Origin: Solibacillus palustris
GTDB lineage: Bacteria > Bacillota > Bacilli > Bacillales_A > Planococcaceae
Direction of reading: 5' to 3'
DNA: 64,000 nt
NCBI RefSeq assembly: GCF_022549215.1
Contig: NZ_JAKZFC010000001.1
Span: 806,001-870,000, forward strand
Shown here in pieces: positions 35,496 to 52,214 of this stretch. The translations under genes were made by a program, and so were the position numbers. The notes under the pieces are model-generated. The model was not told where the DNA came from, did not search any database, and worked only from the letters and a program-made list of their open reading frames with translations. Position 1 is the stretch's first letter, and the number at the start of each line of letters is the position of its first letter.

Positions 35496-36947
35496 ATGGG
35501 AGAAATATTAATAAATAATACTATTTTGCCGAAAAGAAAAAATATAGAAAATTTAATGGCTGTTGTAAATGCATTAACAATTAATTCTGCACTTATAGGT
35601 TGTGCAATTTTTATTAAAGATTATCCTTTTCAAAAATGGGTATTTTTATTTTCAATTTTATCGGTAATCCAGTTAGTTATTAATATTGTTACAATAAGGA
35701 AATTAGAAGGGAAATTATTCTCGTTAAATATACTTTTTGTAATATTTTCCTTTATAACTCACCTTGGCTTAGTTGTAATTTATGGTTTTAATATTAATGT
35801 AGATTTACCTTGGAATCCCTTCATAACGATTTCAACTAAAATGTTTAAAGATGCTTCTTTTTTTTCCTTATGTAGCCATTTGTTTTTAATAATCGGCATG
35901 TCCTTCATCTTGATGAATTCTAAAACAAAAAATTTAGTTTCTACAAAACCTTTAGAAGATGAAAATAATCAATTATTCCTAACTAGAAACGTTGGTGCAA
36001 TATTATTTCTTTTAGGATTATTCCCAATGTTGTATATCGATATCAATAAAATTATTTTATATGTAAACGGAAACTATTTGGACACTTTTCAATTAAATAT
36101 ACCTAGCTTTTTCTATATTATAGCTAGTTTTAGCAATATTGGCGTAATAATGTTGTTAATTGGAAATAAATCAGATAAAAGAAAAGTATTGCTCTTACTA
36201 GGTCTTGCAACAATTTATAAAGGCGCTTTAATGTTTACAGGTGGTAGAGGCGAGCCAATTTTATATTTATTAACTTTATATTTTGTTTATTTCAACTTTC
36301 TGAGAATCGATAAAATTAAATCCTATAAAATACCTTTTTATTTACTATTAATTTATATGGTAGGTTTTTTAACTACATTTATCAGTCAAACTCGCATGAT
36401 GTCTATCAATGATGTTAGTACCTTTATGGAGGTTTTTAAGTCAACATTTATAGACTTCTCTCCATTTTCAGTCATTGCAGAGTTTGGTATAACAATAATT
36501 ACTTTAGGTATTTCGATAGAATTTTTTTCATTTAATAATGATTTTCAATATGGTTTAAACTATTTTCTATCATTATTAAATATGTTTCCAAATGTGGGGG
36601 GAATATTAGACTTTACTATTCCTAAAACAATATATGTTTACAATTATCCTGCACATTTAAGGTCATTTCTGGGTGGATCGTATTTAGGGGAAGCGTTTTA
36701 TAGTTTTGGCTATTTTGGTATGGTTTTTATTGCATTTATCGGAATGTCAATTAGTTATATTTCTTTAAAATTACAAGAACTATTTTTAAAACAAAGATAT
36801 ATACAATTATCAATTTTGTTGATATTATTTCCAAATTTACTTTGGTGGACAAGAGCTTATTTCGTTGATATGGTCAGGGAATTTACTTGGGTTTCTCTAT
36901 GTACAGTTATTTTAACTATATTATTCAAAAGAAACAATTACAAATAA
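35496..36947 (+). CDS. wzy: Polysaccharide polymerase (Wzy)
   Basis: 483-aa polytopic protein with about 12 hydrophobic segments and a large loop around 300-390, no catalytic motif readable, very AT-rich. By topology, length and position between glycosyltransferases and Wzx, it is the repeat-unit polymerase joining undecaprenyl-linked units outside the membrane. The TGGRGEPILY segment is shared with the O-antigen polymerase family. Wzy proteins diverge too much for the linkage to be guessed. Confidence 0.82.
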   Translation: MGEILINNTILPKRKNIENLMAVVNALTINSALIGCAIFIKDYPFQKWVFLFSILSVIQLVINIVTIRKLEGKLFSLNILFVIFSFITHLGLVVIYGFNINVDLPWNPFITISTKMFKDASFFSLCSHLFLIIGMSFILMNSKTKNLVSTKPLEDENNQLFLTRNVGAILFLLGLFPMLYIDINKIILYVNGNYLDTFQLNIPSFFYIIASFSNIGVIMLLIGNKSDKRKVLLLLGLATIYKGALMFTGGRGEPILYLLTLYFVYFNFLRIDKIKSYKIPFYLLLIYMVGFLTTFISQTRMMSINDVSTFMEVFKSTFIDFSPFSVIAEFGITIITLGISIEFFSFNNDFQYGLNYFLSLLNMFPNVGGILDFTIPKTIYVYNYPAHLRSFLGGSYLGEAFYSFGYFGMVFIAFIGMSISYISLKLQELFLKQRYIQLSILLILFPNLLWWTRAYFVDMVREFTWVSLCTVILTILFKRNNYK

Positions 36948-37107
36948 AGGTAAGGTTTTTTAAAAGTAATTATTAAATTTCTCAATCTATTATTATTGAA
37001 ATTAACCGATTGTTAGTGAAAGTGAAAAGGCTCGGTGGGGAATATTTCAAAAAGATACGAATTGATCCATAAAGAACTAAAAATTGATTTCTGGGAGAGT
37101 ATAATAT

Positions 37108-38091
37108 ATGGAGAATATTGTAGTAAGCATTCATTGTTTAGCTTATAATCATGAAAAATTTATAGCAGAGGCTCTCGAGAGTTTTTTAATGCAAAAGACT
37201 AATTTTAAATTTGAAATTTTAATACATGATGATGCCTCTACTGATAGAACACAAGAGATTATTAAAGAATATGAGTTACAACATCCAGAGTTAATAAAAC
37301 CTATTTATCAATCAGAGAATCAATATTCAAAAGAAAATTCAGCTAATACTATAAATTTAATTAACTTAAATCGCGCAAAGGGAAAATATATTGCCGTGTG
37401 TGAAGGTGATGACTACTGGATAGATCCATATAAATTACAAAAACAAGTAGATTATTTGGAAAAAAATCCCGATTGTAGTTTATGTGTTCATGGCGGTTAT
37501 ATAGTGACTGCAGCAGAAAAAAAGGTTCTATTAAAAAATAGATCATATAAAAAGGATAAAGATTATACAGTGGGCGAGGTTATTGAGGGTGGTGGTGGGC
37601 TATTTTTAACAAATTCTATGCTATTCCCAAAAAAATACGCATTAGAAAGACCTGCATTTCTACTAAATGCCCCAGTAGGTGACTACCCATATGCTATTAA
37701 CCTATCATTACAAGGCAAAGTTTATTATATAGATGAATTTATGTCAGCTTATCGAGTAGGACATAGTGGCTCTTGGACAGCTAGGGAATATAATAATATC
37801 GAGAATAAGAAACGGCATTATGCTGAAATTGAAAATATGCTAGATAACTTAAATATGTATACAGATTATCGATATTCAGATGCTATTACTAGAACAAAAA
37901 TCAAAACACAATTTTATTTTTTGTTAGAACAAAGAAAATATGATGAAGCAATAAAAGGTAATTACAAAGAATACTACCTAGAATTAAGCCTTAAAAGAAA
38001 ATTAATTATTTTTATTGATCAATATAGTCCATTTATTTCTAAAACTTTAAGGAGTATTAAAAGGGGGGTAATTGGGTGGACCTCCATATAA
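37108..38091 (+). CDS. GT2 family glycosyltransferase
   Basis: 327-aa GT-A glycosyltransferase. It starts VVSIHCLAYNHEKFIAEAL, with IHDDASTDRTQEI and the metal-binding DxD-like GDDYWIDPYKLQKQVD, then the acceptor region GDYPYAINLSLQGKVYYID, where the catalytic Asp is expected. Belongs to a GT2 subgroup common in capsule loci (often Fuc/Gal-type acceptors); specificity unknown. Its 3' end overlaps wzx by 16 bp, so the two are translationally linked. Confidence 0.9.
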   Translation: MENIVVSIHCLAYNHEKFIAEALESFLMQKTNFKFEILIHDDASTDRTQEIIKEYELQHPELIKPIYQSENQYSKENSANTINLINLNRAKGKYIAVCEGDDYWIDPYKLQKQVDYLEKNPDCSLCVHGGYIVTAAEKKVLLKNRSYKKDKDYTVGEVIEGGGGLFLTNSMLFPKKYALERPAFLLNAPVGDYPYAINLSLQGKVYYIDEFMSAYRVGHSGSWTAREYNNIENKKRHYAEIENMLDNLNMYTDYRYSDAITRTKIKTQFYFLLEQRKYDEAIKGNYKEYYLELSLKRKLIIFIDQYSPFISKTLRSIKRGVIGWTSI

Positions 38092-39548
38092 CAAAATTTA
38101 AAGTGTTATCATCTCTATTGTGGAAGTTGATGGAGAGAGGAGGGGTGCAGGGGATTCAGTTTATAGTAATGATTGTACTTGCACGAATTCTTTTACCGGA
38201 TGATTTTGGATTAATCGTTCTAGTAACAGTTTTTATATCCATGGCTGGAATTGTAACGCAAGGCGGATTTAATTTAGCTCTAATACAAAAGAAAAAAGTC
38301 GATGTAGTAGATTTTTCATCGGTCTTTTATTTAAACTTATTTATTGCATCTATTCTATATATCCTACTCTTTTTCACAGCACCATATATAGCCTCATTTT
38401 TTGAACAACCTCAATTAAAATTTATTTTAAGAATACTGGCCATATCCTTATTTTTTTATTCTTTTAGTGCAATTCAAAATACAATCATTTCGAGAGAATT
38501 TCAATTTAAGAAACTATTTATTAGTACTCTTACAGCATCTATTATAGCCGGAATAGTTGGTATAGCAATGGCATATACTAATTATGGTATATGGGCTTTG
38601 GTAGGGTTTCAATTAACAAATCAATTTCTAGTTACGATTATACTATGGTTCACAATAAAATGGAGACCAAAACTTCTTTTTTCATATAAAAGGATTAAGA
38701 GATTATTTTCATTTGGGTGGAAGTTATTAGTTTCTTCTTTGATTGATGCAATAGATATAAATATAAGAAGTTTGTTAATAGGTAAGTTTTTTAATCCAGC
38801 AATACTAGGTTTTTATAATAGAGGAGAGCAATTTCCTAACCTACTTGTAAATAATATAAATGGAGCGATACAAGCAGTTATGTTTCCAACACTTTCGTCT
38901 CATCAAGATGATCGAAATAGAGTGAAAGAGATGGTAAGGAGAGCAATTGTGACGAGTTCATTCGTCATTTTCCCTATGATGGTTGGACTAGCGGTTATTG
39001 CAGAACCTTTAGTAGAGCTTTTATTGACAGAAAAGTGGTTACCTACAGTTCCGTTCATCCAAATATTTTGTGTTGGCTATGCTTTATGGCCAATTCATAC
39101 AGCTAATTTACAGGCAATAAATGCATTAGGAAGAAGCGATATTTTTCTCAAATTAGAAATCATAAAAAAGCTATTAGGCCTATTTGTTTTAATAGTAAGT
39201 ATCCCTTTCGGCGTTTATGCAGTAGCTATTAGTATAGTATTTGGCGGAGTTATAGCGTCGTTCATTAATGCATATCCCAATTCGAAATTGCTCAACTATA
39301 GTATTCGAGAGCAATGGAATGATGTGATCCCCTCCTTGCTTTTATCTATAGTTATGGGAACAGTTATATATACTATTCATTGGCTTCAAATGTCAGCTAT
39401 GTTAACTATATTAGCCCAAGTTTTTGCCGGCATCGTTATATATATAGGATTAGCTGCTCTGTTCAGACTCGAATGCTTTTCTTATTTACTCGTAACGCTA
39501 AAAGGACTGTTAAGAAGTAAAAGAAGTATGCAATTAAAAGTAGATTAA
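38076..39548 (+). CDS. wzx: Repeat-unit flippase (Wzx, MOP superfamily)
   Basis: 490-aa polytopic protein with about 12-14 transmembrane segments, from the polysaccharide transporter (PST) branch of the MOP superfamily. The segment GGVQGIQFIVMIVLARILLP at the first helices and the stretch FFNPAILGFYNRGEQFPN in the middle are typical. It flips the undecaprenyl-PP-linked repeat unit across the membrane. GTG at 38076 with AAGGGGGG 8 bp upstream, starting inside the preceding transferase. Confidence 0.93.
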   Translation: MDLHITKFKVLSSLLWKLMERGGVQGIQFIVMIVLARILLPDDFGLIVLVTVFISMAGIVTQGGFNLALIQKKKVDVVDFSSVFYLNLFIASILYILLFFTAPYIASFFEQPQLKFILRILAISLFFYSFSAIQNTIISREFQFKKLFISTLTASIIAGIVGIAMAYTNYGIWALVGFQLTNQFLVTIILWFTIKWRPKLLFSYKRIKRLFSFGWKLLVSSLIDAIDINIRSLLIGKFFNPAILGFYNRGEQFPNLLVNNINGAIQAVMFPTLSSHQDDRNRVKEMVRRAIVTSSFVIFPMMVGLAVIAEPLVELLLTEKWLPTVPFIQIFCVGYALWPIHTANLQAINALGRSDIFLKLEIIKKLLGLFVLIVSIPFGVYAVAISIVFGGVIASFINAYPNSKLLNYSIREQWNDVIPSLLLSIVMGTVIYTIHWLQMSAMLTILAQVFAGIVIYIGLAALFRLECFSYLLVTLKGLLRSKRSMQLKVD

Positions 39549-39608: not shown

Positions 39609-40571
39609 ATGAAAGAAATCGGCGGGTATTTTGAATTGGAGCAATTAATTAGCAATGAATATTATAAGGACTTAATACATTTGAACACAGCAAGGAATGC
39701 TTTACTATATCTCATTAAGTCAAAGAAAATCGAAAAAGTTTATATTCCATTTTACCTATGTAATTCAGTAAGTAACATGCTGGATAGATATGGGTATGAA
39801 TATGAATACTACAGAATTGCTGCTGATTTTAGTCCCATTTTTAATAAAGAACTTAAAAAGCAAGAATGCCTTTATGTTGTTAACTATTTTGGACAATTAT
39901 CAGAAGAAAAAATATTATATATCAAAGATAAACATAAACAAATAATTGTAGATAATACTCAGGCTTTTTTTCAAAGGCCGTTAAATTCAGTAGATACCAT
40001 ATATTCATGTAGGAAATTTTTTGGCGTGCCTGATGGGGCGTACTTATCAACTGATAAAAGATTAGATAAAACATTAGAAATTGATATTTCTAAAGATAGG
40101 GTAGAGCATCTTTTAGGACGTTTTGAAGGAAAAGCCTCTGATTATTATAGTGGTTTTTTGGAAGTGGATGAAAGATTTAATGGAGAGACTCTAAAGCAAA
40201 TGTCTAAAATAACGCGTAATTTAATGGGAGCAATTGACTATCAGAATGTTATACGGGAAAGAAATAGAAATTATAGATATTTAGAAAATGAACTAAAAAA
40301 ATATAATCCGATAAAATTAAATTCACCTGAAGGCCCTTATTGTTATCCATTTTATGCTGATAATGGGTTTGAAATTAGGAGGAATTTAGCTGAAAAAAAA
40401 ATATATATTCCTACACTTTGGAAAAATGTTTTACAAGTAACACCACAAGAAAGTATCGAGTATCGATATAGTGCAAATTTATTACCGATACCATGTGATC
40501 AACGTTACGATGAAGATGATATGAAATATATTGTTGAATGTATAAATATTGAAGAAAAAATAAACTATTAA
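39609..40571 (+). CDS. Divergent PLP-aminotransferase-like protein
   Basis: 320-aa protein recognisable only in outline as a small DegT/DnrJ-like aspartate aminotransferase-fold protein. LNTARNALLYLI equals the PLP phosphate loop, VYIPFYLCNSV the strand that normally reads PxFT, VDNTQAFFQ the Asp that contacts the pyridine nitrogen, and YSCRKFFGVPDGAYL the region of the Schiff-base lysine. It is about 55 residues shorter than the adjacent true aminotransferase (41178) and lacks a clear C-terminal domain. Catalytic activity is uncertain; related proteins occur in other capsule loci without assigned function. ATG with AGGTGA 12 bp before. Confidence 0.6.
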   Translation: MKEIGGYFELEQLISNEYYKDLIHLNTARNALLYLIKSKKIEKVYIPFYLCNSVSNMLDRYGYEYEYYRIAADFSPIFNKELKKQECLYVVNYFGQLSEEKILYIKDKHKQIIVDNTQAFFQRPLNSVDTIYSCRKFFGVPDGAYLSTDKRLDKTLEIDISKDRVEHLLGRFEGKASDYYSGFLEVDERFNGETLKQMSKITRNLMGAIDYQNVIRERNRNYRYLENELKKYNPIKLNSPEGPYCYPFYADNGFEIRRNLAEKKIYIPTLWKNVLQVTPQESIEYRYSANLLPIPCDQRYDEDDMKYIVECINIEEKINY

Positions 40572-40593: not shown

Positions 40594-41151
40594 ATGAAGG
40601 ATAATTTATATTTGAGAGCTTTTGAATACAGTGATTTAAGCTTATTAAATGAAATAAGAAATGATGATATTCTTTTTCAAACAACTGGGGGCAATAAATA
40701 CTATATCTCTTCTGAATACGATAAAAAATGGATAGAAGATAAAATATTTAATAATTACAAGCAGCTTTATCTTGTAATTTGTTGTAGAGGTATTGATGAA
40801 CCAATCGGATATATATGTGCAACTAATATTGACTATTTAAATCGAAAGGCTGAATGGGGTGGGCTGGTAATTTCTAAAGAATTCATTAGTAAAGGATTTG
40901 GGACAGATGCTGGTTATTTATTTTTAGACCATTTATTTGGGGAACTTGGATTGAATATGGTTTATGCATATGTAAAGGAAGATAACAAAGCATCATATAG
41001 GCTATCTGAAAAGTACGGCTTTAAAAAAGATGGTTTAATAAGAGACTTTGTTTATAAACAAAATAAATTTCATAATGCCTACGTATTTACTATGTTGAAA
41101 TCGGAATATGAAAAATTACAGTTGCATGAAGAAGAGGCTTCAATTAGATAG
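40594..41151 (+). CDS. GNAT family N-acetyltransferase
   Basis: 185-aa RimJ/RimL-like GNAT. It has LYLRAFEYSDLSLLNEIRND at the start, the acetyl-CoA loop region ISKEFISKGFGTDAG and the C-terminal NKASYRLSEKYGFKKDG. Between two aminotransferase-type genes and followed by the VioA-like enzyme, it may acetylate an amino sugar nucleotide, as PseH and WecD do. Competing acyltransferase for the same sugar is the hexapeptide enzyme at 49800. TAAGGAG precedes ATG. Confidence 0.85.
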   Translation: MKDNLYLRAFEYSDLSLLNEIRNDDILFQTTGGNKYYISSEYDKKWIEDKIFNNYKQLYLVICCRGIDEPIGYICATNIDYLNRKAEWGGLVISKEFISKGFGTDAGYLFLDHLFGELGLNMVYAYVKEDNKASYRLSEKYGFKKDGLIRDFVYKQNKFHNAYVFTMLKSEYEKLQLHEEEASIR

Positions 41152-41177: not shown

Positions 41178-42302
41178 ATGGACATACCTATTCAAGTAAC
41201 ACGTTCCTCAATGCCGACTTTAAATGAGTATATAGAAGAAATAAAAGATTTATGGGAAAGTAGATTGTTGACTAATCAAGGGGCTAAGCACAATCAATTA
41301 GAGGTGGAATTAGCTGATTATTTAGTAGTTTCAAATGTTGCGCTATTTACAAATGGCCATTTAGCATTGGAGTATATTCTAGAAGTTTTCCAACTAAAAG
41401 GAGAAGTTATAACCACACCATTTACGTTTGCATCCACTACTCACGCCATTGTAAGAAGTGGATTAACACCCGTTTTTGCGGATATTAATCCTAATGATTA
41501 TACAATGCAAACGGATAATTTAGAGAGTCTTATAACTGAAAAAACATCCGCTATTATGCCTGTTCATGTATATGGGAATATATGTAATGTTAAAGAGATT
41601 GAGCGGATTGCACAAAAATATAATTTGAAAGTGATTTATGATGCTGCCCATGCTTTTGGTGTCACTGTAAATGGAGAAAGTATTGCCAATTTTGGCGATG
41701 CTTCGATGTTCAGTTTTCATGCTACAAAAGTTTTTAATACAATTGAAGGTGGGGCTCTCACATTTAAAGATTCCAACCTAAAAAATGTCATAGAAGCATA
41801 TAAAAACTTTGGTATCACTGGACCTGAAACTGTAGAATACATTGGTGGCAACTCAAAAATGAATGAATTCCAGGCAGCAATGGGTCTATGTAATCTTAGA
41901 AATGTAGAGCGAGAAATTGAAAAAAGAAGATTAGTTTATGAAAGATATCTTGAAAATCTGAGCGATGTTGTGGGTATTGTATTGCCACGTATTGCGAAAG
42001 GTGTCATTAGCAATTATTCTTACTTCCCAGTGCTTTTTGATAGTGAAAAAATTTCAAGAGACGAAATTCATCATGATTTAATGAAACACAACATCTATAC
42101 AAGAAAATATTTTTATCCATTAACCAACCAACTAGAATGCTACCAATCCAAATTCGCCCCAAATTACACTCCAATCGCACAACTAATTTCAGAAAAAATC
42201 TTAACACTCCCACTATATGCAGATTTGCATTTAGATGATGTCGATCGAATTTGTAAAATTATAAAAACTAAGTTAGTACTAAATCAATTAAATATTTATT
42301 GA
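41178..42302 (+). CDS. vioA: dTDP-4-amino-4,6-dideoxyglucose transaminase (VioA-like, DegT family)
   Basis: 374-aa PLP-dependent sugar aminotransferase. It has the VioA-group signature LLTNQGAKHNQLE, GEVITTPFTFASTTHA, IMPVHVYGN and VIYDAAHAFGV (Asp155), with Lys184 in SFHATKVFNT as the probable PLP lysine. VioA turns dTDP-4-keto-6-deoxyglucose into dTDP-Qui4N. The substrate is supplied by rfbA and rfbB 750 bp downstream, and no rmlC or rmlD is present to draw it to rhamnose. This makes an amino sugar the expected end product. AAAGGTGA precedes ATG. Confidence 0.85.
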   Translation: MDIPIQVTRSSMPTLNEYIEEIKDLWESRLLTNQGAKHNQLEVELADYLVVSNVALFTNGHLALEYILEVFQLKGEVITTPFTFASTTHAIVRSGLTPVFADINPNDYTMQTDNLESLITEKTSAIMPVHVYGNICNVKEIERIAQKYNLKVIYDAAHAFGVTVNGESIANFGDASMFSFHATKVFNTIEGGALTFKDSNLKNVIEAYKNFGITGPETVEYIGGNSKMNEFQAAMGLCNLRNVEREIEKRRLVYERYLENLSDVVGIVLPRIAKGVISNYSYFPVLFDSEKISRDEIHHDLMKHNIYTRKYFYPLTNQLECYQSKFAPNYTPIAQLISEKILTLPLYADLHLDDVDRICKIIKTKLVLNQLNIY

Positions 42303-42320: not shown

Positions 42321-43028
42321 TTGAAGTTAGTACTTATGCAACCATACTTTTTTCCTTATATTGGTTACTTTCAATTAATGAATCTATGTGACGAATTTAT
42401 CGTTTTTGATACCGTACAGTATATAAAAAAGGGATGGATTAATAGAAATAGGATTCTTCATCCAGAGGGAACCCCTACTTATATAAATGTTCCTATTCAA
42501 AAATTCAAATCAAATACATTAATAAAAGATATTTTAATTAATAACAAGGAGAACTGGAAACAATCAATCATTAATCGTTTACAACAGTATTATAAAAATG
42601 CTCCATATACGGAAGAAGTTATTGCATTTGTGGAAAATTGTTTAAGTGAAGAATTTTCAAATTTAAGCGAGTTAAATGTCCGTTTATTGAAGGAAACTTG
42701 TAATTATTTAAACATAAGCTGTCGAATAACGTCATTATCAAAATCTAATTTTGAATATGAAGATGCTACGGCTCCTGACGAATGGGGGCTAAATATATGT
42801 AAGGCACTAGATGCGAAAACATATATTAACGCTCCGGGAGGCATTTTATTTTTTGATATAGATAAATATAAAGAAGAAAGTATAGAAATAAAATTTATTA
42901 ACCCTATTTTAAATAATTATGTTCAAAATTATGAAACTTTTGTTCCTGGTTTATCTATTCTGGATGTAATGATGTTTAATAGTGTTGATGAAATACAAGA
43001 AATGTTGCTAAGTTATGAAGAAATTTAA
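42321..43028 (+). CDS. WbqC-like family protein
   Basis: 235-aa protein of the WbqC-like family: MQPYFFPYIGYFQLM at the start, FDTVQYIKKGWINRNRI, then APGGILFFD and VPGLSILDVMMFNS. The family occurs in O-antigen and capsule loci beside 4-amino-4,6-dideoxyhexose genes and has been proposed (from memory, not proven) to help add glycyl or other acyl groups to the amine. Here it directly follows the VioA-like gene, fitting that. TTG start at 42321, six bases after CGGAGGT. Confidence 0.85.
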   Translation: MKLVLMQPYFFPYIGYFQLMNLCDEFIVFDTVQYIKKGWINRNRILHPEGTPTYINVPIQKFKSNTLIKDILINNKENWKQSIINRLQQYYKNAPYTEEVIAFVENCLSEEFSNLSELNVRLLKETCNYLNISCRITSLSKSNFEYEDATAPDEWGLNICKALDAKTYINAPGGILFFDIDKYKEESIEIKFINPILNNYVQNYETFVPGLSILDVMMFNSVDEIQEMLLSYEEI

Positions 43029-43053: not shown

Positions 43054-43947
43054 TTGAAAGGAATTTTGTTAGCAGGGGGTTCAGGAACTAGGTTGTACCC
43101 TTTAACTAAATCAATATCAAAGCAAATGCTACCCATTTATGATAAGCCGATGATTTATTATCCACTATCTGTATTAATGCTAGCTGGAATAAGAGAGGTC
43201 TTAATTATTTCTACCCCGCGTGATATAGAAGGATTTAAAGAGCTTTTAGGAAATGGTAGTAAGCTAGGTATGAAATTCGAATTTGCTGTTCAAGAAAATC
43301 CGAATGGACTGGCCGAAGCATTTATTATTGGAGAAAGCTTTATCGGTAACTCATCTGTTGCATTAGTTTTAGGAGATAATATTTTTTACGGTTCCAACTT
43401 ATCGGTGTTATTAAAAGATGCAGCTTCTTTAACAAAAGGCAGTATTATTATAGGCTGTTATGTAAATGATCCTCGCGCTTATGGTGTGGTAGAAGTAGAT
43501 GAACAGCACAATGCCATTTCAATAGAAGAAAAGCCTGAAAAACCTAAATCATCTTATGCGATTCCAGGTTTATATTTCTTTGATAATAAAGTTGTACAAT
43601 TTGCAAATAGTGTTGAGCCATCTTCACGAGGTGAATTAGAAATCACTTCTATATTAGAGGAATACATGCATCAAGATGAACTGATTGTAAAGCTAGCAGG
43701 GCGTGGATTAGCGTGGTTAGATACTGGTACACACGAATCCCTATTAGAAGCTTCCAATTTTGTTGAGGCAATTCAAAAACGTCAAGGTTTGTATATTGCT
43801 TGTATAGAAGAGATTGCCTATCGAAAAGGGTACATTACAAAAAAAGAGCTAATAAAACTCGCTGAACCACTTATGAAAACAGATTATGGGAAATATTTAA
43901 TGGATCTGGCACAAATTTTCGACGTATCAATTGAAACTGTATCCTAA
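43054..43947 (+). CDS. rfbA: Glucose-1-phosphate thymidylyltransferase
   Basis: 297-aa nucleotidyltransferase making dTDP-glucose. Signature [20 protein letters not shown] near the N terminus, then [21 protein letters not shown] and [18 protein letters not shown], all typical of RmlA. TTG start at 43054, 8 bp after GAGGTG. First step of the dTDP branch; substrate Glc-1-P would derive from Glc-6-P, of interest given the isomerase paralogue at 47238. Confidence 0.97.
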
Positions 43948-43963: not shown

Positions 43964-44956
43964 ATGAAAAAGCTATTGGTAACTGGTGGGGCTGGATTTA
44001 TCGGCGGTAATTTTATTCATTATCTATTAGAACATTACCCTCACTACAAAATTTATAATTTGGATGCACTGACGTATGCAGGTGATTTAACAAAGCATTC
44101 TGCAATAGAACCCATGGAAAATTATCATTTTATAGAGGCAGATATTACAGATTTTCAGGAAATCATGCAGTTATTTGAAAAAGAACGATTTGATTTTGTC
44201 ATCCATTTTGCTGCGGAAAGTCATGTGGACCGCTCTATTAGAGATCCTGGTATTTTTGTTCAAACTAATGTGTTAGGTACACAAGTGTTATTAGAGGCGG
44301 CAAAGAATGTAGGGATTACAAAATTTGTTCACGTTTCAACAGATGAAGTATACGGGGAATTGGATTTTGACCCAACAACTTTTTTTACCGAAGAAACACC
44401 ATTAAAACCTAATAGCCCCTATAGCGCAAGTAAAGCATCTTCAGATTTTTTGGTACAAGCTTTTCACCACACTTATGGATTACCTATCAATATTACGCGC
44501 TGTTCGAATAACTATGGACCGTACCATTTCCCTGAAAAGTTAATACCTTTAACAATTAGTCGAGTTTTGAATAATGAAAAGGTACCTGTTTATGGAGATG
44601 GTCAAAATATCCGAGACTGGTTACATGTGTTTGATCACTGCGCGGCTATTGATTTAGTATTGCACGAAGGCGTCGATGGTGAGGTATACAATATCGGTGG
44701 TCATAATGAGCGAACGAACTTACAAGTGGTGAAAACAATTATTCAAGCATTAGGGAAATCTGAAGAACTAATCGGATTTGTTGAGGATCGTTTAGGGCAT
44801 GATAAACGTTATGCAATTGATCCATCTAAATTAGAACAATTAGGGTGGAAGCCAAAATTTACTTTTGAGTCGGGCATTGACCAAACAATCAAATGGTATG
44901 TTGAGAACAAAGTGTGGATAGAACAAATTAATAGTAGGAATTTACACATGTTGTAA
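43964..44956 (+). CDS. rfbB: dTDP-glucose 4,6-dehydratase
   Basis: 330-aa extended SDR producing dTDP-4-keto-6-deoxyglucose. NAD motif GGAGFIG, FAAESHVDRSI, the catalytic HVSTDEVYGEL (Thr-Asp-Glu), YSASKAS (Tyr-x3-Lys) and NNYGPYHFPEKLIP. ATG 43964 preceded by AAAAGGTGG; an upstream in-frame ATG would overlap rfbA. Last gene of the contiguous capsule operon: terminator 56 bp later. rmlC and rmlD are not in the window. Confidence 0.97.
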   Translation: MKKLLVTGGAGFIGGNFIHYLLEHYPHYKIYNLDALTYAGDLTKHSAIEPMENYHFIEADITDFQEIMQLFEKERFDFVIHFAAESHVDRSIRDPGIFVQTNVLGTQVLLEAAKNVGITKFVHVSTDEVYGELDFDPTTFFTEETPLKPNSPYSASKASSDFLVQAFHHTYGLPINITRCSNNYGPYHFPEKLIPLTISRVLNNEKVPVYGDGQNIRDWLHVFDHCAAIDLVLHEGVDGEVYNIGGHNERTNLQVVKTIIQALGKSEELIGFVEDRLGHDKRYAIDPSKLEQLGWKPKFTFESGIDQTIKWYVENKVWIEQINSRNLHML

Positions 44957-45267: not shown

Positions 45268-47082
45268 ATGATATCTAATCAAAAAATCCTAATGTCAATT
45301 ATTGTATTTTTAACATTAATTCTAAGTGCTTGTTCAGAGGAAGAAGGACAAAGTGCAAAAGATATTGTTATTGAAGATATATATATTGAAATGAATGATG
45401 GAGTAAAACTAGCTTCCCGTGTATATCGCCCAGATGATAATAACCGCTATCCCGTATTACTAGCAAGAACTACATATTATAGTGGGGCATTTGGCAGTAA
45501 AGAGGAGGGGGATTACCGAGAACTTGGAATAAGAATGGCTGAAAAAGGATATGTAGTCGTTATTCAAGATGTAAGAGGCTTACATAGTTCTGAAGGGGAA
45601 TGGCGATTGTTTAAGGATGATGCATCTGATGGTTATCAAACGGTCATTTGGCTAAACAAGCAAACATGGAGCAATGGAAAAGTAGGCGTTTTTGGAACAT
45701 CTGCACTTGGTATGACAGCAAATTTATTAGCTACTACGAACCCTCCTGGATTGAAAGCTGCCTTCGTTCAAATGGCTCCGTCTCAATTTTATGAGGAAGT
45801 TCTTGCGGAAGGTGGAATTTATAGACATGAACTTGCTACACGGTGGATGTATTTTATAAACTCTGCTTATTCAATAAAAATGCTGCAGCAAGGAAAAATT
45901 GACGAAGAAACATATTCTAAAATAGTGGATGCCAATAAGGAGTTTCCGGATCTATTTTTGCATACACCACTTAATAGTTTTCCTTATTTAAGTGATAATA
46001 CATCTTTTACTTCAATTTTTGAACACTATATACAGGATGAATACTATGATTATTATGATATTCCTTCTAATTTCTCAAATATAAAAATCCCAATTTATCA
46101 TCTTGGAGGTTGGTATGACACCTTTTTAGAAGGGACGATGAAAAACTATCTAGGGCTGCAGCAATTTGGCGGAAAGGGAGCAAAAGGAAACCAAAAGCTG
46201 CTTATGGGTCCTTGGACACATCAAGATTTTGGACAGAACGGTTTAGATGGAGATAGTGCTTTCTTTGAAGGTGATGAAATCTATTTAATTACCGAGATGG
46301 AACGCTGGTTTGATTACTGGCTAAAAGATATCGATACAGGTGTGATGGAGGAAGACCCCATTAAGTATTATACAATTGGGGCTAATGAATGGAGAACGAC
46401 TAAGGTATGGCCTGTTGCAGATGTAGAAAAAGTAAAATGGTACTTTAATAATGAAAAAAGCAACAGTGCAACGTCGATAAATGATTCGTTATTGTCGAAT
46501 GAAGAGCCACTTTTAGAAGCAAAAAATCAATTTAGATATGACCCTAAAAACCCAATTATCACAATTGGGGGAAGAAATTTATTTAGCGAATTGGGGCTAG
46601 GACCATTAGATCAACGCCCTGCCGAAAAACATTCTTTAACATATACGTCAGAGCCGTTAACAGAACCATTAGAAATAGGAGGCACTGTTTTAGCTACCTT
46701 ATATGTTTCTTCAGATGCCATTGATACTGATTTCACTGTGAAATTAACGGATGTATCACCCGATGGCACTTCCAATTTATTAAATGAAGGGGCATTACGA
46801 ATGCGATTCCGTGAAGGTCTAGATAGAGAAGTATTTATGGAAAAGGGGAAAATGTATGAAATAGAAATCAATTTACATGTAATAAGTCATGTATTTAATG
46901 AGGGGCATAGAATTCGAGTAGCTGTAGCAAGTAGCAATTTCCCACGATTTGACCGAAACTCAAATACTGGCAATCCACTTGGCGTGGATTCAGAGGAAGA
47001 TTTTGTGATAGCGGAAAATGCAGTTCATATAGGCCCAGAACATCTATCACACATCACCCTTCCAGTCATAAAAAAACAATAA
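45268..47082 (+). CDS. CocE/NonD-family alpha/beta hydrolase lipoprotein
   Basis: 604-aa secreted hydrolase. Signal peptide with lipobox LSAC, Cys22 lipidated, so anchored to the outer face of the membrane. Residues ~35-330 form the X-Pro dipeptidyl-peptidase/CocE alpha/beta domain: nucleophile Ser145 in FGTSALG, Asp in GGWYDTFLEG, His in GPWTHQDFG. The rest is the jelly-roll C-terminal domain of the same family. Its substrate (an ester or acyl-peptide) is unknown. It sits between rfbB and the isomerase gene, and an extracellular esterase/acylase next to a sugar-acylation module could trim acyl groups from the polymer (speculation). Confidence 0.88.
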   Translation: MISNQKILMSIIVFLTLILSACSEEEGQSAKDIVIEDIYIEMNDGVKLASRVYRPDDNNRYPVLLARTTYYSGAFGSKEEGDYRELGIRMAEKGYVVVIQDVRGLHSSEGEWRLFKDDASDGYQTVIWLNKQTWSNGKVGVFGTSALGMTANLLATTNPPGLKAAFVQMAPSQFYEEVLAEGGIYRHELATRWMYFINSAYSIKMLQQGKIDEETYSKIVDANKEFPDLFLHTPLNSFPYLSDNTSFTSIFEHYIQDEYYDYYDIPSNFSNIKIPIYHLGGWYDTFLEGTMKNYLGLQQFGGKGAKGNQKLLMGPWTHQDFGQNGLDGDSAFFEGDEIYLITEMERWFDYWLKDIDTGVMEEDPIKYYTIGANEWRTTKVWPVADVEKVKWYFNNEKSNSATSINDSLLSNEEPLLEAKNQFRYDPKNPIITIGGRNLFSELGLGPLDQRPAEKHSLTYTSEPLTEPLEIGGTVLATLYVSSDAIDTDFTVKLTDVSPDGTSNLLNEGALRMRFREGLDREVFMEKGKMYEIEINLHVISHVFNEGHRIRVAVASSNFPRFDRNSNTGNPLGVDSEEDFVIAENAVHIGPEHLSHITLPVIKKQ

Positions 47083-47237: not shown

Positions 47238-48545
47238 ATGATTCAATTACTCCAAACCGGTATTTTAAATGAATCCTTAATACAAATTGAGTGGGAAGAT
47301 TATACTGAATCGGTAGCAGCAATCCATCGCCATTTAGAAGGAGCTAATAGTGAAATGACAGGTTGGCTTAATTCCCCAATAGAAAATAATATAGAAATGG
47401 TGAAATCGATTCAACGTATCGCAAATGAAATTAAGATAGCGGCTGATGTATTAGTAGTTATTGGGGTAGGTGGCTCATTTTTAGGTGCAAAAGCTATTCA
47501 AGACGCATTAACTCCTTATTTTGGTGATTGTACGAATGGCATTGAAGTTATTTATGTTGGGCAAAATATGAGTGGTGCTTATATAAGGCAGTTACTAAAT
47601 AGTCTTGAACATAAGGAAGTGTATGTGAATGTTATTTCGAAATCTGGTAAAACAATGGAGCCTGCATTAGCCTTTCGTGTATTTCGACAATATATGGAGA
47701 AACGATATGGAGATGAAGCATATAATCGGATTATCGTCACAACTGATGCTGAAAACGGATTATTAAACAAAATTGCAAAAAAAACAGGTTACCGTCAATT
47801 CGTAATTCCAGCGAATATTGGTGGTCGCTATTCCGTACTGACACCGGTAGGACTATTACCAGTTGCTGTTGCGGGTGTTGATATAGAAAAGTTACTAGAA
47901 GGTGCAAAAAAAGCTGCAACTGTTTTAAAGAATGAAAATCTCGAGCAAAACGAAGCATATCGATATGCAGTTATACGACAAGCGCTCTACAAAAATGGTT
48001 ATAAAATTGAACTGTTAGCCTCGTTCGAACCGTGTCTAGCAAAACTGCATGAATGGTGGAAGCAATTATTTGGTGAAAGTGAAGGAAAAGATAAAAAGGG
48101 ATTGTTTCCGGCTTCAGTTAGCTATTCGACCGACTTACATGCAATTGGTCAGTTCATACAAGATGGCAGCCCAATTGTTTTTGAAACATTACTTCATTTC
48201 AAGGAGATCCTGTTTGATTATCAAGTGCCATTTGATGATCAAAACGATGATCACCTGAATTATTTAGCGAATCAAAGCTTTAATAACATCAATGCAATTT
48301 CTAAGCAAGGTACGGCTTTGGCCCACGCAGATGGAGGGGTTCCGATCATCCAACTCGAATTAGAGCGGTTGGATGCCTATCATTTGGGGTACCTTATTTA
48401 TTTTTTCATGAAAGCATGTGCGATGAGTGCTTATCTTTTACAGGTTAATCCTTTTGATCAACCAGGTGTTGAAGCCTATAAAAAGAAAATGCTCCAATTA
48501 TTGCAAATTGATAATTTTAAGAATGAATATGGAGTTGGAATGTAA
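47238..48545 (+). CDS. pgi: Glucose-6-phosphate isomerase paralogue
   Basis: 435-aa phosphosugar isomerase. Both family signatures are present (IGGRYSVLTPVG, and NPFDQPGVEAYKK), as are the active-site regions GESEGKDKKGLFPA and LAHADGGVP. The sugar-phosphate loop reads SKSGKTMEPA, where housekeeping Firmicute enzymes usually have SKSGTTTEPA, so Lys138 replaces a phosphate-binding Thr. ATG 47238 is chosen over TTG 47235 because ACGAGGGG is 7 bp upstream. Isomerases of this type also occur in Acinetobacter capsule loci beside galE. Probably feeds or drains hexose phosphate for nucleotide-sugar synthesis; altered specificity is possible. Confidence 0.88.
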   Translation: MIQLLQTGILNESLIQIEWEDYTESVAAIHRHLEGANSEMTGWLNSPIENNIEMVKSIQRIANEIKIAADVLVVIGVGGSFLGAKAIQDALTPYFGDCTNGIEVIYVGQNMSGAYIRQLLNSLEHKEVYVNVISKSGKTMEPALAFRVFRQYMEKRYGDEAYNRIIVTTDAENGLLNKIAKKTGYRQFVIPANIGGRYSVLTPVGLLPVAVAGVDIEKLLEGAKKAATVLKNENLEQNEAYRYAVIRQALYKNGYKIELLASFEPCLAKLHEWWKQLFGESEGKDKKGLFPASVSYSTDLHAIGQFIQDGSPIVFETLLHFKEILFDYQVPFDDQNDDHLNYLANQSFNNINAISKQGTALAHADGGVPIIQLELERLDAYHLGYLIYFFMKACAMSAYLLQVNPFDQPGVEAYKKKMLQLLQIDNFKNEYGVGM

Positions 48546-49529
48546 ATGACATCAATAAAGGCGATAGAATATCATTTTCCTACAAATCAAATTGCTAATG
48601 ACCCTAACAATAAATTAACAAAGAAAATTGGAATTTCAACTAGATATATCGCAGATAAAGATGAAACAGCTTCAGACCTGGCGATACAAGCTGCTGAAAA
48701 ATTGTTTGAAAAGGGTGTTTGTAAAAAGAGTGAAATCGATTTTTTGCTATTTTGTACGCAAGCTCCAGATTATATTTTGCCTACAACCGCATGCATTATT
48801 CAGGAGAAATTAAAACTTCCAACTAGTTGTGGTGCGCTCGATTTTAATTTAGGGTGTTCTGGTTTTGTTTATGGCCTATCTCTTGCTAAAGGGTTAATTG
48901 AAAGCGGGCAAGCAAAGAATGTTTTACTATTAACAGCAGATACTTACAGTAAATTTATCCATGAAAATGATTTCAGCACATCCATATTATTTGGTGATGC
49001 AGCCGCAGCGACTTTGATTACTGAATCTTCTGATAGTGGAAATCTTGGTCCATTTGTATTTGGGACGGATGGTAGTGGGGCTGAAGAGTTAATTATATTT
49101 GCTGGTGGGTCTAGAGAGCCGATGGATTCTGAAGCTTTACTGGAATTTGAAGATGAAAAAGGCAATATTAGAACGCGAAGTAATTTGTATATGAATGGAT
49201 CAGAAGTATTTAATTTTGCTATGAGGGAAGTACCGAAAGCGGTTGCCGATTTGTTAAAGAAAGAAAATACAACCTTGAATGATTATGATTACTTTATTTT
49301 TCACCAAGCGAACAGATATATGTTAGAGGCTTTAAGAAGAAGGATAAATATTGATGAAGATAAATTTTCCATCCAATTGAATGATTGTGGTAATACGGTA
49401 TCTTCAACAATCCCAATAGCCTTACAAAAAGAAATTGAAATTGGACATATTAAAAACGGGGACAAAGTTTTATTAGTTGGATTTGGAGTAGGGTTATCTT
49501 GGGGCGTTTGCTCAATAAGAATACGTTAG
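48546..49529 (+). CDS. 3-oxoacyl-ACP synthase III family protein
   Basis: 327-aa KAS III (FabH-like) condensing enzyme. The Cys-His-Asn triad is intact: C104 in NLGCSGF, H253 in FHQANRY, N283 in CGNTVSST. It starts one base after the pgi-type stop and is followed 32 bp later by a dedicated acyl carrier protein gene and then an acyltransferase gene. That arrangement implies synthesis of a short acyl group on the carrier rather than bulk fatty-acid synthesis. FabH makes acetoacetyl-ACP from acetyl-CoA and malonyl-ACP; the true product here is unknown. Confidence 0.92.
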   Translation: MTSIKAIEYHFPTNQIANDPNNKLTKKIGISTRYIADKDETASDLAIQAAEKLFEKGVCKKSEIDFLLFCTQAPDYILPTTACIIQEKLKLPTSCGALDFNLGCSGFVYGLSLAKGLIESGQAKNVLLLTADTYSKFIHENDFSTSILFGDAAAATLITESSDSGNLGPFVFGTDGSGAEELIIFAGGSREPMDSEALLEFEDEKGNIRTRSNLYMNGSEVFNFAMREVPKAVADLLKKENTTLNDYDYFIFHQANRYMLEALRRRINIDEDKFSIQLNDCGNTVSSTIPIALQKEIEIGHIKNGDKVLLVGFGVGLSWGVCSIRIR

Positions 49530-49561
49530 TAACAATATATCTATATGCGGGGGGCTATTGG

Positions 49562-49810
49562 ATGAATCTAAAAGAATTTATAGCATTATGTGAAGAGATT
49601 TTAGAAATAAAAGAAGGTAAGCTAACAATGGATACTCGTTTAGACAATATAGAAGAATGGGACTCATTAACAAGAATGGATTTGGTTTCGTATTGTGATG
49701 AGAAGTTTAATACTACACTACCTATAGAGATTTTTCGAGATACTGAAACATTTCAAGATGTAGTAAATATAGTGAAGCCGTATTTACAAGTAGCAGCCTA
49801 TGAAAAATGA
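49562..49810 (+). CDS. Dedicated acyl carrier protein
   Basis: 82-aa carrier protein with the phosphopantetheine-attachment motif WDSL (Ser35) and the usual four-helix acidic pattern. ATG 49562 is set by GGGGGG 7 bp upstream; the frame can be extended 21 codons into the KAS III gene but without a ribosome site. It overlaps the acyltransferase gene by 11 bp, indicating coupled translation. It differs from housekeeping AcpP, which normally reads DSLD at this motif; here the motif is DSLT. Confidence 0.9.
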   Translation: MNLKEFIALCEEILEIKEGKLTMDTRLDNIEEWDSLTRMDLVSYCDEKFNTTLPIEIFRDTETFQDVVNIVKPYLQVAAYEK

Positions 49811-50480
49811 AGAGTTGCTACTATTAATTGGTGATGGAGAATTTGCCGAAATAGCATATGAATATTTTACTTATGATTCTCCCTATCGTGTCGTAGCGTT
49901 TGCAGTTGAAAAAGAGTATCTTGTGAAGGAAACATTGTATGGTTTACCTGTTATTCCTTTTGAGGAAATCGATCAATGGTATTCACCCGAGCAATATAAA
50001 GCTTTTGTTGCTATTAATAGTACTAAATTAAATAGACTTAGAACTAGATTATATAATGAAGTAAAAAATAAAGGCTATAAAGTTGTTTCATATATTAGCT
50101 CAAAAGCGTTCGTATGGCGAAATGTAAAGGTGGGTGAAAATACCTTTATTTTCGAAAACAATGTCTTACAGCATCATGTTGAAGTAGGGAATAATGTAAT
50201 TATGTGGAGCGGCAATCATGTTGGGCATCGATCGATTATAAAAGACAATAGTTTTATAACTTCCCATGTGGTGATAGCGGGTAGATCTGAAATAGGAGAG
50301 AGTTGCTTTTTAGGTATAAACAGTACTATAAATGACATGATTAAAGTAGGAAAAGATTGTTTCATTTCTTCTGGAGCAGTAGTCAATAAAAATACAAAAG
50401 AAGGATATATTTACTCGGGAAATCCAGCAAAATCTATGGCTATAACTAGCTATAGATATTATGAAATAGAAGCGGAGTAA
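49800..50480 (+). CDS. NeuD/PglD-like hexapeptide acyltransferase
   Basis: 226-aa sugar O/N-acyltransferase. Residues ~5-80 form the Rossmann-like nucleotide-sugar-binding domain (LLLIGDGEFAEIAYEYF), and residues ~100-215 a left-handed beta helix with hexapeptide repeats (VGENTFIFENNVLQ, VGNNVIMWSG). The likely catalytic His is in NHVGHRS. PglD acetylates UDP-4-amino sugars at N4. Coupled to an ACP gene, this one may take an acyl-ACP and act on dTDP-Qui4N or the UDP-4-amino sugar of this locus (inference). Confidence 0.87.
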   Translation: MKNEELLLLIGDGEFAEIAYEYFTYDSPYRVVAFAVEKEYLVKETLYGLPVIPFEEIDQWYSPEQYKAFVAINSTKLNRLRTRLYNEVKNKGYKVVSYISSKAFVWRNVKVGENTFIFENNVLQHHVEVGNNVIMWSGNHVGHRSIIKDNSFITSHVVIAGRSEIGESCFLGINSTINDMIKVGKDCFISSGAVVNKNTKEGYIYSGNPAKSMAITSYRYYEIEAE

Positions 50481-50598
50481 ACATTATGCTCGAAGGTATG
50501 AAGAAGAGAGAAAGCTCGTACTTAATTTCAAACTAATCAAGCATGTCGCCATCTTTAGAGCTATGCCATTGCCTTAACAAACATTATGAATCAAATTT

Positions 50599-50630
50599 CC
50601 AAAGTATGTTTAATGCTTTGGGGTTTTTTT
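50599..50630 (+). terminator. Terminator after the acylation module
   Basis: CCAAAG (50599-50604) pairs with CTTTGG (50616-50621), followed by GG and seven Ts. It separates the KAS/ACP/acyltransferase genes from wzz. Confidence 0.75.
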
Positions 50631-50764: not shown

Positions 50765-51499
50765 TTGGGAGAAGCAATCAGTTTACAAGAAGTCATAAAA
50801 ATAATTAGAAAAAGATTGTTACTTATTATTTCTTTAGTAGTTATTAGTGTTGGAATTAGTATAGGCATTAGTTTTTATTTATTAACCCCGATTTATCAGG
50901 CACAAACACAAATTTTAGTAAATCAACAAAGTAGTCTTAGTGATGCATATTCATGGCAATCAATAGAAACGGATTTGCGATTAATTAATACGTATAATGT
51001 CATCATTACAAATACAGCTATTTTAACTCCTGTAATTGAAGAACTTAAATTAGATGTAACCCCGGAAGAGTTATCTAAACAAATTTCAGTTTCGAATGAG
51101 AGTGATTCAAAAGTTGTAAATATCAGTGTATTAGATCCAGATCCGTCACGTGCTGTGGAAATTTCAAATACGATTTCAGAAGTGTTTAAAGAAAGAGTTT
51201 CAGAGCTAATGAGAGTTGATAATATTTCAATCTTATCAGAAGCAAAACTAAGTGATAACCCTATTCCTGTAAGACCCAATAAGATTTTAAATATCTTTAT
51301 TGCGGCAGTATTTGGTCTTATGCTGGGGGTAAGTATTGTAATTCTACTTGAAATTTTAGATACAACAATAAAAAGCGAGAAAGACATCGAAGAACATTAT
51401 GGTTTACCTGTCATAGGTATAGTTGGCTTAATTGTTGAAAAAAAAGAAAAGAAAATTTCCCTTAAATCACGTAGCGTTAGGAGGAGCGAAAATGATTAG
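50765..51499 (+). CDS. ywqC: Chain-length determinant / BY-kinase activator (Wzz, YwqC/CapA)
   Basis: 244-aa membrane protein with two transmembrane helices (residues ~20-40 and ~175-197) and an extracellular Wzz domain. The C-terminal cytoplasmic tail after PNKILNIFIAAVFGLMLGV is the part that activates the tyrosine kinase. TTG start at 50765 with AAGGGGG 7 bp before. It overlaps the kinase gene by 8 bp. Controls polymer length together with the kinase and the phosphatase encoded at 22885. Confidence 0.93.
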   Translation: MGEAISLQEVIKIIRKRLLLIISLVVISVGISIGISFYLLTPIYQAQTQILVNQQSSLSDAYSWQSIETDLRLINTYNVIITNTAILTPVIEELKLDVTPEELSKQISVSNESDSKVVNISVLDPDPSRAVEISNTISEVFKERVSELMRVDNISILSEAKLSDNPIPVRPNKILNIFIAAVFGLMLGVSIVILLEILDTTIKSEKDIEEHYGLPVIGIVGLIVEKKEKKISLKSRSVRRSEND

Positions 51500-52214
51500 G
51501 TTGAGAAGTAAAAAAAAGAAAAAACAGTTAATGTTATCAAAATTAGCTCGGAATTTAATTACTTTTTCAGATACGAAATCAATTATTTCAGAGCAATTTC
51601 GTACGATTCGTGCAAACATCACATTTTCTATGCCAGATCAAGAATTAAAAACGATTTTGGTCACCTCGTCTACTCCAGGAGAAGGAAAATCCACTAATGT
51701 TGCAAATTTAGGGGTTGTATTTGCGCAGGAAGGGAAAAGGGTTCTGATCATCGATGGGGATTTGCGAAAACCGACTTTGCATCACACATTTAAAACCTTC
51801 AATAAAGTAGGGTTATCTAATGTAATTGCAAAAAAGGCTACTATTAACGAGGCGATACAAGAGACATTTATTTTTGGGCTTCATGTATTAACAAGTGGTC
51901 CTATTCCACCAAATCCAGCTGAATTACTTTCTTCAAAATCGATGGATGCGTTGATTCTTGATGTGAAGAGAGATTTTGACATCGTTATTATTGACGCACC
52001 CCCATTATTATCTGTGTCGGATGCGCAAATTTTGGCGAATAAATGCGATGGCACCGTATTAATCGTTAATACAGGTGTTGTCGAAAAGGAAGCTGTTCGA
52101 AAAGCGAATGTCATTTTGTCTAATTCTCAATCAATCATTATAGGAGTAGTTTTAAATAATTATGTAACCCCAAAACATCAGCACTATTATAACGAATATA
52201 GTTTCGGTGAATAA
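51492..52214 (+). CDS. ywqD: Capsular tyrosine kinase (BY-kinase, YwqD/CapB)
   Basis: 240-aa cytoplasmic BY-kinase. Walker A SSTPGEGKST (residues 59-68), Walker A' VLIIDGDLRKP (84-94) and Walker B VIIDAPP. The C-terminal cluster HYYNEYSFGE carries three tyrosines (Y232, Y233, Y236) for autophosphorylation in trans. ATG 51492 is set by GGAGGAGCG; a 20-residue longer frame lies wholly within ywqC. Phosphorylation state, balanced by YwqE, regulates polymer export and probably UDP-sugar enzymes. Confidence 0.94.
   Translation: MIRLRSKKKKKQLMLSKLARNLITFSDTKSIISEQFRTIRANITFSMPDQELKTILVTSSTPGEGKSTNVANLGVVFAQEGKRVLIIDGDLRKPTLHHTFKTFNKVGLSNVIAKKATINEAIQETFIFGLHVLTSGPIPPNPAELLSSKSMDALILDVKRDFDIVIIDAPPLLSVSDAQILANKCDGTVLIVNTGVVEKEAVRKANVILSNSQSIIIGVVLNNYVTPKHQHYYNEYSFGE

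Follow-up and report, generated by a model that had tools for sequence, protein, structure and literature searches.

In a 64,000-nucleotide stretch of the Solibacillus palustris genome (RefSeq assembly GCF_022549215.1, contig NZ_JAKZFC010000001.1, positions 806,001 to 870,000; hereafter "the window", in whose numbering positions are given) three adjoining genes encode a beta-ketoacyl-acyl carrier protein synthase III (KAS III), a dedicated acyl carrier protein (ACP) and an acyltransferase of the NeuD family, inside a locus for a surface polysaccharide. The trio is real and its arrangement is not due to chance. We see about an even chance that it is a small type II polyketide-like module that would supply an acyl group for the polysaccharide and place it on the 4-amine of deoxythymidine diphosphate-4-amino-4,6-dideoxyglucose (dTDP-Qui4N), a reading that draws on gene content and comparison. 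A similar chemistry has already been described in Pseudomonas; the novelty lies in the Gram-positive polysaccharide locus, in having no dedicated reductase and in the divergent transferase. The genes concerned, with the one upstream, are:

47241..48545, + strand: glucose-6-phosphate isomerase (pgi), upstream of KAS III
48546..49529, + strand: KAS III of the amino-sugar (VioS-like) group, by Pfam, NCBIfam, catalytic triad and tree
49562..49810, + strand: dedicated ACP of 82 amino acids with an Asp-Ser35-Leu phosphopantetheine site, by Pfam and alignment
49800..50480, + strand: NeuD/PglD-family left-handed beta-helix acyltransferase of 226 amino acids, WSGNHxGH subtype, with a catalytic-type His143

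The KAS III-ACP-NeuD trio

All three genes are under purifying selection, with ratios of nonsynonymous to synonymous change (dN/dS) of 0.07-0.25 against three relatives (G008, G011 and G013; G and L numbers denote genomes and loci), and the order KAS-ACP-NeuD is repeated in G008, G011, G013 and G014, as well as in a Sporomusa locus (L039). They are also closely packed: the stop codon of pgi (TAA, 48543-48545) is followed, with zero bases between, by the start of the KAS III gene at 48546, the ACP gene (ATG at 49562) begins after a gap of 32 bases, and the last 11 bases of the ACP gene (49800-49810) are shared with the transferase gene. Thus, of the coupling claimed in a preliminary description of this DNA the 11-bp overlap stands, whereas the "1-base junction" fits pgi and KAS III at most, and not KAS III and ACP. 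A terminator-like hairpin found by a scan 3' of the transferase (50597..50623, + strand) is by itself no evidence, since three such sites were found in the region against 2.9 expected.

The condensing enzyme, carrier and transferase named in that description all hold up. KAS III matches Pfam ACP_syn_III_C (E 3e-29) and the NCBIfam beta-ketoacyl-ACP synthase 3 model NF006829 (275.6 bits against a cut-off of 249), and falls under the stricter cut-off of TIGR00747 fabH (251.5 against 292.1). Its triad, Cys104/His253/Asn283, is unchanged in all seven aligned sequences (the window's and those of six relatives); across 94 aligned KAS the Cys is present in 94, the His in 93 and the Asn in 92, the exceptions being one gap and one non-KAS III-like enzyme of the same genome. 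A FastTree phylogeny of these 94 places it in a group of 76 (local support 0.90, against 0.56 and 0.08 at the two nodes immediately deeper) with the KAS of Pseudomonas viosamine-type islands, and apart from the genome's own FabH and eight FabH-like enzymes of the class. Given this placement and 36% identity to the own FabH, we rejected the idea of a second housekeeping FabH. At residue 78, which in E. coli FabH is a position of the starter pocket, it has Leu where the own FabH and those eight enzymes have Phe, so its choice of starter may differ from that of FabH.

The ACP matches PF00550 (PP-binding, E 8e-5, 23.2 bits against a cut-off of 20.8) and scores below the cut-offs of the NCBIfam ACP models; the column of Ser35 is Ser in all 52 rows of an alignment with 51 ACP-like open reading frames (ORFs). 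The transferase exceeds the cut-off of the NeuD/PglB/VioB model TIGR03570 (178.6 bits against 160.8) and lies just under that of PglD_N (22.1 against 23.4), and His143 is unchanged in 12 of 12 aligned rows. Its predicted structure is of middling quality (mean pLDDT, the per-residue confidence measure, 73) and adds little beyond the family assignment.

Thirteen residues past His143 the transferase has another histidine, His156. A His or Tyr stands at that position in 32 of the 41 KAS-linked transferases having the catalytic-type His, out of 51 KAS-linked hexapeptide ORFs (46 tallied automatically and five rows of L100-L107 by hand, three with the His), a set that includes close kin, 13 from Flavobacterium and five from Pseudomonas. 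In contrast, PglD, WeeI, PerB and VioB have G, G, A and N there (counted by eye), and the N-acetyltransferases PglD, PerB and Acinetobacter VioB are users of acetyl-coenzyme A (acetyl-CoA). A His or Tyr at this position is thus a possible marker of the donor. As proof of the donor it was dismissed, with exceptions on both sides: G018, G087 and G099 have the His without KAS, G011 has KAS with Gln, and LpxD, an ACP-using acyltransferase, has Gly.

The surrounding locus and a probable dTDP-Qui4N pathway

The trio lies among the following genes of the locus, in which Pfam marks further glycosyltransferases:

22876: CpsB/CapC (Pfam)
26024: Polysacc_synt_2 dehydratase of the PglF kind (Pfam)
27925: initiating sugar transferase (Pfam)
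31925: UDP-GlcNAc 2-epimerase (Pfam)
35496..39548, + strand: Wzy-type polymerase (35496), glycosyltransferase (37108) and Wzx-type flippase (38076)
39609..40571, + strand: protein of 320 amino acids matching no Pfam or NCBIfam model, possibly DegT-like
40594..41151, + strand: GNAT acetyltransferase, PseH-like (below that model's cut-off), an alternative acylator of the amine
41178..42302, + strand: DegT-family sugar aminotransferase, DesI/VioA-like, probable source of the Qui4N amine (Pfam, NCBIfam, PDB)
42321..43028, + strand: WbqC-like protein, whose predicted fold matches bacillithiol synthase BshC
43054..43947, + strand: RmlA-like nucleotidyltransferase (Pfam NTP_transferase; RmlA by our reading and its place beside RmlB)
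43967..44956, + strand: RmlB, dTDP-glucose 4,6-dehydratase (NCBIfam)
50765..52214, + strand: Wzz chain-length protein (50765) and its ATPase partner (51432), directly 3' of the trio

The VioA-like transaminase, the WbqC-like protein and RfbAB, which the preliminary description had placed in the same locus, are all there. The best PDB match of the transaminase is 2po3 (197 bits), which we take to be DesI, and its best NCBIfam model is DesI as well (284.6 bits, under the cut-off of 650). Because tblastn with two transaminase queries finds it to be the sole DegT-type transaminase in the window, because rmlC has no match at E <= 0.001 in the genome (rated 99.98% complete), and because this RmlB is the genome's single dTDP-glucose 4,6-dehydratase over the family cut-off, RmlA, RmlB and the transaminase probably make dTDP-Qui4N. 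Use of RmlA and RmlB for rhamnose synthesis was thought unlikely, there being no rmlC match (rmlD was not sought), and the pair is apparently not shared with that pathway.

On our preferred reading KAS III, as its family and intact triad suggest, would condense an acyl-CoA starter, most likely acetyl-CoA, with malonyl-ACP to give 3-oxoacyl-ACP, and the dedicated ACP would hold the acyl group, to which its invariant Ser and the gene coupling point. The 3-oxo group would then be reduced to 3-hydroxyacyl, probably by the housekeeping FabG, which we propose because the locus lacks a reductase of its own: none lies beside the trio, reductase models match in the window only at about 10.3 kb and 24.8 kb (22-bit), and a FabG over the cut-off is encoded elsewhere in the genome. 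Alternatively, the polymer may tolerate a 3-oxoacyl group. As the coupling of the genes and the parallel with the Pseudomonas syringae viosamine island suggest, the NeuD-family transferase would pass the acyl group on to the equatorial 4-amine of a sugar nucleotide of the 4-amino-4,6-dideoxy-gluco type, for which dTDP-Qui4N is the most likely candidate. Judging from the locus, the acylated sugar would enter the Wzx/Wzy/Wzz-dependent polysaccharide. Acyl groups on Qui4N-like sugars decide the recognition of surface polymers.

Comparison with known systems

Acylated Qui4N in a Gram-positive organism has a precedent in the anthrose operon of Bacillus anthracis, which uses CoA-type enzymes. That an ACP route would be new, as first thought, is refuted by the viosamine island of P. 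syringae pv. tabaci 6605, which comprises vioA, vioM, vioT, vioS (a KAS III), vioB, vioR (a reductase) and acp (PMC3927599), and we rejected that claim on this ground. The product of the island is described as dTDP-Qui4N-N-(3-hydroxybutyryl), and the flagellin glycan contains D-Quip4N(3-hydroxy-1-oxobutyl)2Me; mutants in vioA, vioB, vioT and vioR are without modified viosamine, the roles of VioS and ACP were assigned by homology, and the sugar loss in the vioR mutant led the authors to infer that the acetoacetyl form is not passed on (PMC3927599). The window resembles this island in having a VioA-type transaminase, a KAS III of the same group, an ACP and a NeuD-superfamily transferase. It differs in that there is no vioR-type reductase beside the trio, no vioM or vioT was seen, the transferase is of another subtype, and the setting of the trio is a Gram-positive Wzx/Wzy/Wzz locus with RmlAB, not a flagellin glycosylation island.

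Viosamine-type loci surfaced directly in a scan with the window KAS, and four from Pseudomonas (L069, L070, L074 and L085) resemble these islands; sequence identities refer to those four, the pv. tabaci 6605 island being compared by its published description. To their KAS the window KAS is 52.5-53.8% identical. ORFs in L074 and L085 have the published sizes of vioT (1173 amino acids), vioM (241), vioB (213) and vioR (253), while their KAS ORFs exceed the published 338 amino acids, a matter of start choice. A VioA-like ORF of 372 amino acids was recognised in L085 and not in L074, and an ACP in L069 and not in L074 or L085.

Plasmid pBGF3 of Burkholderia glumae is like the window in having vioA, a KAS III (50% identical) and an ACP in a row with an acetyltransferase near, and unlike it in that these stand beside flagellin and fliD, with a short-chain reductase and a Rieske protein. 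FdhC and QdhC of O-antigen loci transfer 3-hydroxybutanoyl onto the amine of dTDP-amino-dideoxy sugars (PMC4869667); these, unlike the sugar proposed here, are 3-amino sugars, and the term "acyl carrier" is missing from the main text of that paper. More widely, Qui4N has been found with formyl, acetyl, N-acetylglycyl and N-(3-hydroxybutyryl)-alanyl groups, and in a Shewanella polysaccharide with 3-hydroxybutyryl or 3-hydroxy-3-methylbutyryl (PMC3210612), 3-hydroxybutanoyltransferases and vioAB are reported in O-antigen and capsule loci (PMC4869667, PMC9676051), and genes for an ACP and a 3-oxoacyl-ACP reductase in islands for flagellin glycosylation (PMC7874193, PMC4875605). Searches of the open-access literature gave no further matching title on 3-hydroxybutyryl, ACP and Qui4N, on a KAS/ACP polysaccharide module, on vioS and acyl-ACP, on perosamine tetronate, or on anthrose and ACP.

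Distribution of the trio

Among 201 genomes of relatives, KAS at >=58% identity occurs in seven (15 at E <= 1e-60), the ACP in nine (E <= 1e-5) and the transferase at >=67% identity in eight (10 at E <= 1e-25), and VioA, WbqC and GNAT occur in 30 (E <= 1e-90), 26 (E <= 1e-20) and five (E <= 1e-25), respectively. The seven genomes with KAS and the eight with NeuD share five (hypergeometric p 4e-7), and KAS and ACP occur together in six (p 7e-9), both values being uncorrected for kinship. At E <= 1e-40 the transferase was found among 398 genomes of the class in the own genome and G018 only. Three genomes (G011, G013 and G014) retain GNAT, VioA, WbqC, RmlA, RmlB, CocE, KAS, ACP and NeuD, with pgi missing at the trio site in G011, while the congener G008 has KAS-ACP-NeuD at the same place before Wzz, with a transferase 74% identical to the window's. 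Thus for the most part the trio behaves like one exchangeable unit, and its acceptor cannot be read from the neighbourhood alone.

In one genus a single chromosomal site combines a VioA-RmlA-RmlB core with differing sets of acylation or ligase genes. VioA-RmlA-RmlB is accompanied by ATP-grasp proteins in six genomes (G002, G009, G010, G028, G062 and G074), two of the proteins being called by Pfam and the others by the look of the sequence, and in G002, G009 and G010 this set lies just 5' of Wzz and Wzd, as in the window; G152 likewise has VioA-RmlA-RmlB, and a PALP-family enzyme and another protein are in that place. Since the sets differ at one site, the substituent, and perhaps the WbqC family, should be accessible to single-gene deletions.

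To look beyond these relatives, genome contigs were scanned with a profile of the KAS alignment, and the best 80 loci were used of at least 582 relatives confirmed from at least 591 matching stretches. We placed 77 of the 80 loci (in L045, L078 and L081 no KAS ORF was called), 47 of them with full flanks and many being close kin; neighbours were labelled by iterated hidden Markov models seeded with window proteins, in which "NeuD" includes other hexapeptide proteins and which missed some genes, such as the transaminase of L074. Among these 77, a NeuD/hexapeptide-type gene lies within five genes of KAS in 46, an ACP within three genes in 36 and a second KAS within four genes in 26, and 42 loci have a DegT transaminase. 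Complete or partial KAS-ACP-reductase-transferase sets are thus present in many phyla, and a small carrier-protein acyl module is common to flagellin-type and polysaccharide loci. In the Sporomusa locus, KAS-ACP-transferase adjoins flagellin-like genes and the transferase is 50% identical to the window's.

Within the KAS tree the window enzyme belongs to a 17-member group (support 0.998) from its own genus, relatives, Paenibacillus and Cohnella. Thirteen of these have no short-chain reductase within four genes of KAS, compared with 19 of 67 other placed loci, a comparison in which some loci end at contig ends and the 13 include L024, where neither ACP nor transferase adjoins KAS. In L019-L022 no reductase was found within four genes of KAS.

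Neighbouring GNAT, WbqC-like and 39609 proteins

Structure prediction gives the WbqC-like protein the fold of BshC, an amide-forming enzyme on an amino sugar; sequence homology between the two was not detected (hhalign E 0.47 over 19 columns), a PDB profile search with WbqC gave no rows, and no title on its function was found among the open-access papers listed for WbqC. WbqC goes with VioA: of 15 genomes with WbqC at E <= 1e-38, 14 also have VioA at E <= 1e-90 (uncorrected for kinship), and the two genes are adjacent in G135, G155 and G185. GNAT at >=74% identity is confined, among the 201 genomes, to G000, G011, G013 and G014, all of which bear the trio. The protein at 39609 may be a remote DegT-type enzyme, its hhalign match to VioA being weak (probability 3.4); a PDB profile search with it gave two chance-level rows only, and no counterpart was found in the stretches of G011, G013 and G014.

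Alternative explanations

Several observations weigh against acylation of dTDP-Qui4N by the trio. Among the 77 loci only 19 have both NeuD and ACP close to KAS, and 52 have a short-chain reductase within four genes, whereas the window is without a dedicated one. The transferase is about 20% identical to VioB of the Pseudomonas loci, sharing superfamily and model with it but having another motif around the His. A lone KAS, 58% identical, with neither ACP nor transferase, is found in G051 (L024 9881-10894), which also speaks against a fixed unit. In G018 and G087 a transferase 67-70% identical accompanies RmlAB and a 47% identical transaminase, with no KAS at E <= 1e-60 and no ACP at E <= 1e-5, so that the transferase can exist without the carrier, and in G075 VioA-RmlA-RmlB has WbqC, a 39609-type protein and a GNAT as neighbours and no trio. 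In G008 the trio's neighbours are a PglF end, a DegT transaminase that we read as of the PglE kind and a PglC-type transferase; no dTDP-glucose 4,6-dehydratase over the cut-off and no VioA at E <= 1e-90 were found there, and since the trio stands without dTDP-Qui4N genes its acceptor in G008 must differ. Finally, GNAT and WbqC, beside VioA in the window, could take the same amine.

One may therefore consider that the trio acylates another amine, either of another 4-amino sugar nucleotide or of an amino acid that WbqC has put on Qui4N, with GNAT, WbqC or both acting on the 4-amine of Qui4N. The setting of the trio in G008, the presence of GNAT and WbqC beside VioA, the tracking of VioA by WbqC and the predicted BshC fold would all fit, as would natural Qui4N carrying N-(3-hydroxybutyryl)-alanyl (PMC3210612). 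Yet no PglE-like gene is present in the window, the DesI/VioA-like gene being its only DegT-type transaminase, and the VioA-like/RmlAB loci that hold the transferase in G018 and G087 have no GNAT of the window type; we regard this explanation as rather unlikely. An extension of it that we hold to be improbable is that WbqC joins an amino acid to Qui4N and KAS III-ACP-NeuD then caps it with a short acyl group of polyketide type, the two acting as exchangeable cassettes that build a composite substituent; the cap may stay an unreduced 3-oxoacyl, because loci of this KAS group are mostly without a reductase. If this were true, the WbqC proteins would constitute a novel family of enzymes that form amides on amino sugars.

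That the transferase is a plain acetyl-CoA N-acetyltransferase like PglD or Acinetobacter VioB, KAS and ACP making something else, would agree with the carrier-less transferases of G018 and G087 and with the titles of several solved relatives, which name acetyl-CoA enzymes. We nevertheless find it improbable, given the overlap of the ACP and transferase genes and the occurrence of the trio together in five genomes of the genus and in Sporomusa; moreover, the solved relatives also include the ACP-using LpxD. Very improbable, in our view, is that GNAT rather than NeuD is the acyl-ACP-dependent Qui4N transferase: GNAT, a short-chain reductase and ACP do adjoin in L155-L157, GNAT lies within four genes of KAS in three of the 77 loci, and the closest GNAT relatives are confined to trio-bearing genomes, but G008 has KAS-ACP-NeuD and no such GNAT at E <= 1e-25, and in G075 VioA has a more distant GNAT for a neighbour, with no KAS or ACP.

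Other observations

Compared with G011, G013 and G014, WbqC shows only 48-54% identity, as against 74-94% for GNAT, VioA, RmlA and RmlB, and synonymous change has reached saturation in both comparisons tested (G011 and G013); the wbqC gene looks to have been swapped in by recombination. A 39609-type protein (58-63% identical) stands beside VioA in G002, G028 and G075. In L148, L149, L150 and L151 (three congeners and one member of the same family) two or three ATP-grasp-like genes beside VioA-RmlA-RmlB occupy the place of the window's GNAT and acyl module. In G074 (L147 1631-2275) two TGA codons interrupt a transferase gene that is 70% identical to the window's, and the locus also has an ATP-grasp-like gene. 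The lone KAS of L024 is near long repetitive surface-type proteins.

In L155 (8368-10009), L156 (8521-10121) and L157 (9528-11128) the order reductase-GNAT-ACP is followed by genes that we read as ligase- and LuxE/LuxC-like; these look like nonulosonic acid clusters, and comparable sets of genes are reported from flagellin islands of Aeromonas (PMC7874193). In L050-L053 and further Flavobacterium loci a second KAS and a reductase lie beside the NeuD-type gene, which could explain, by two rounds of condensation and reduction, the N-(3,5-dihydroxyhexanoyl) sugars listed in PMC3210612. Inside the polysaccharide locus of the window lies a CocE/NonD-family hydrolase (45268-47082), whose N-terminus looks like that of a lipoprotein and which is kept in G011, G013 and G014. 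The SpoVS gene 3' of the locus (52326-52592) has two tandem copies in G011 (L021:13523-14096).

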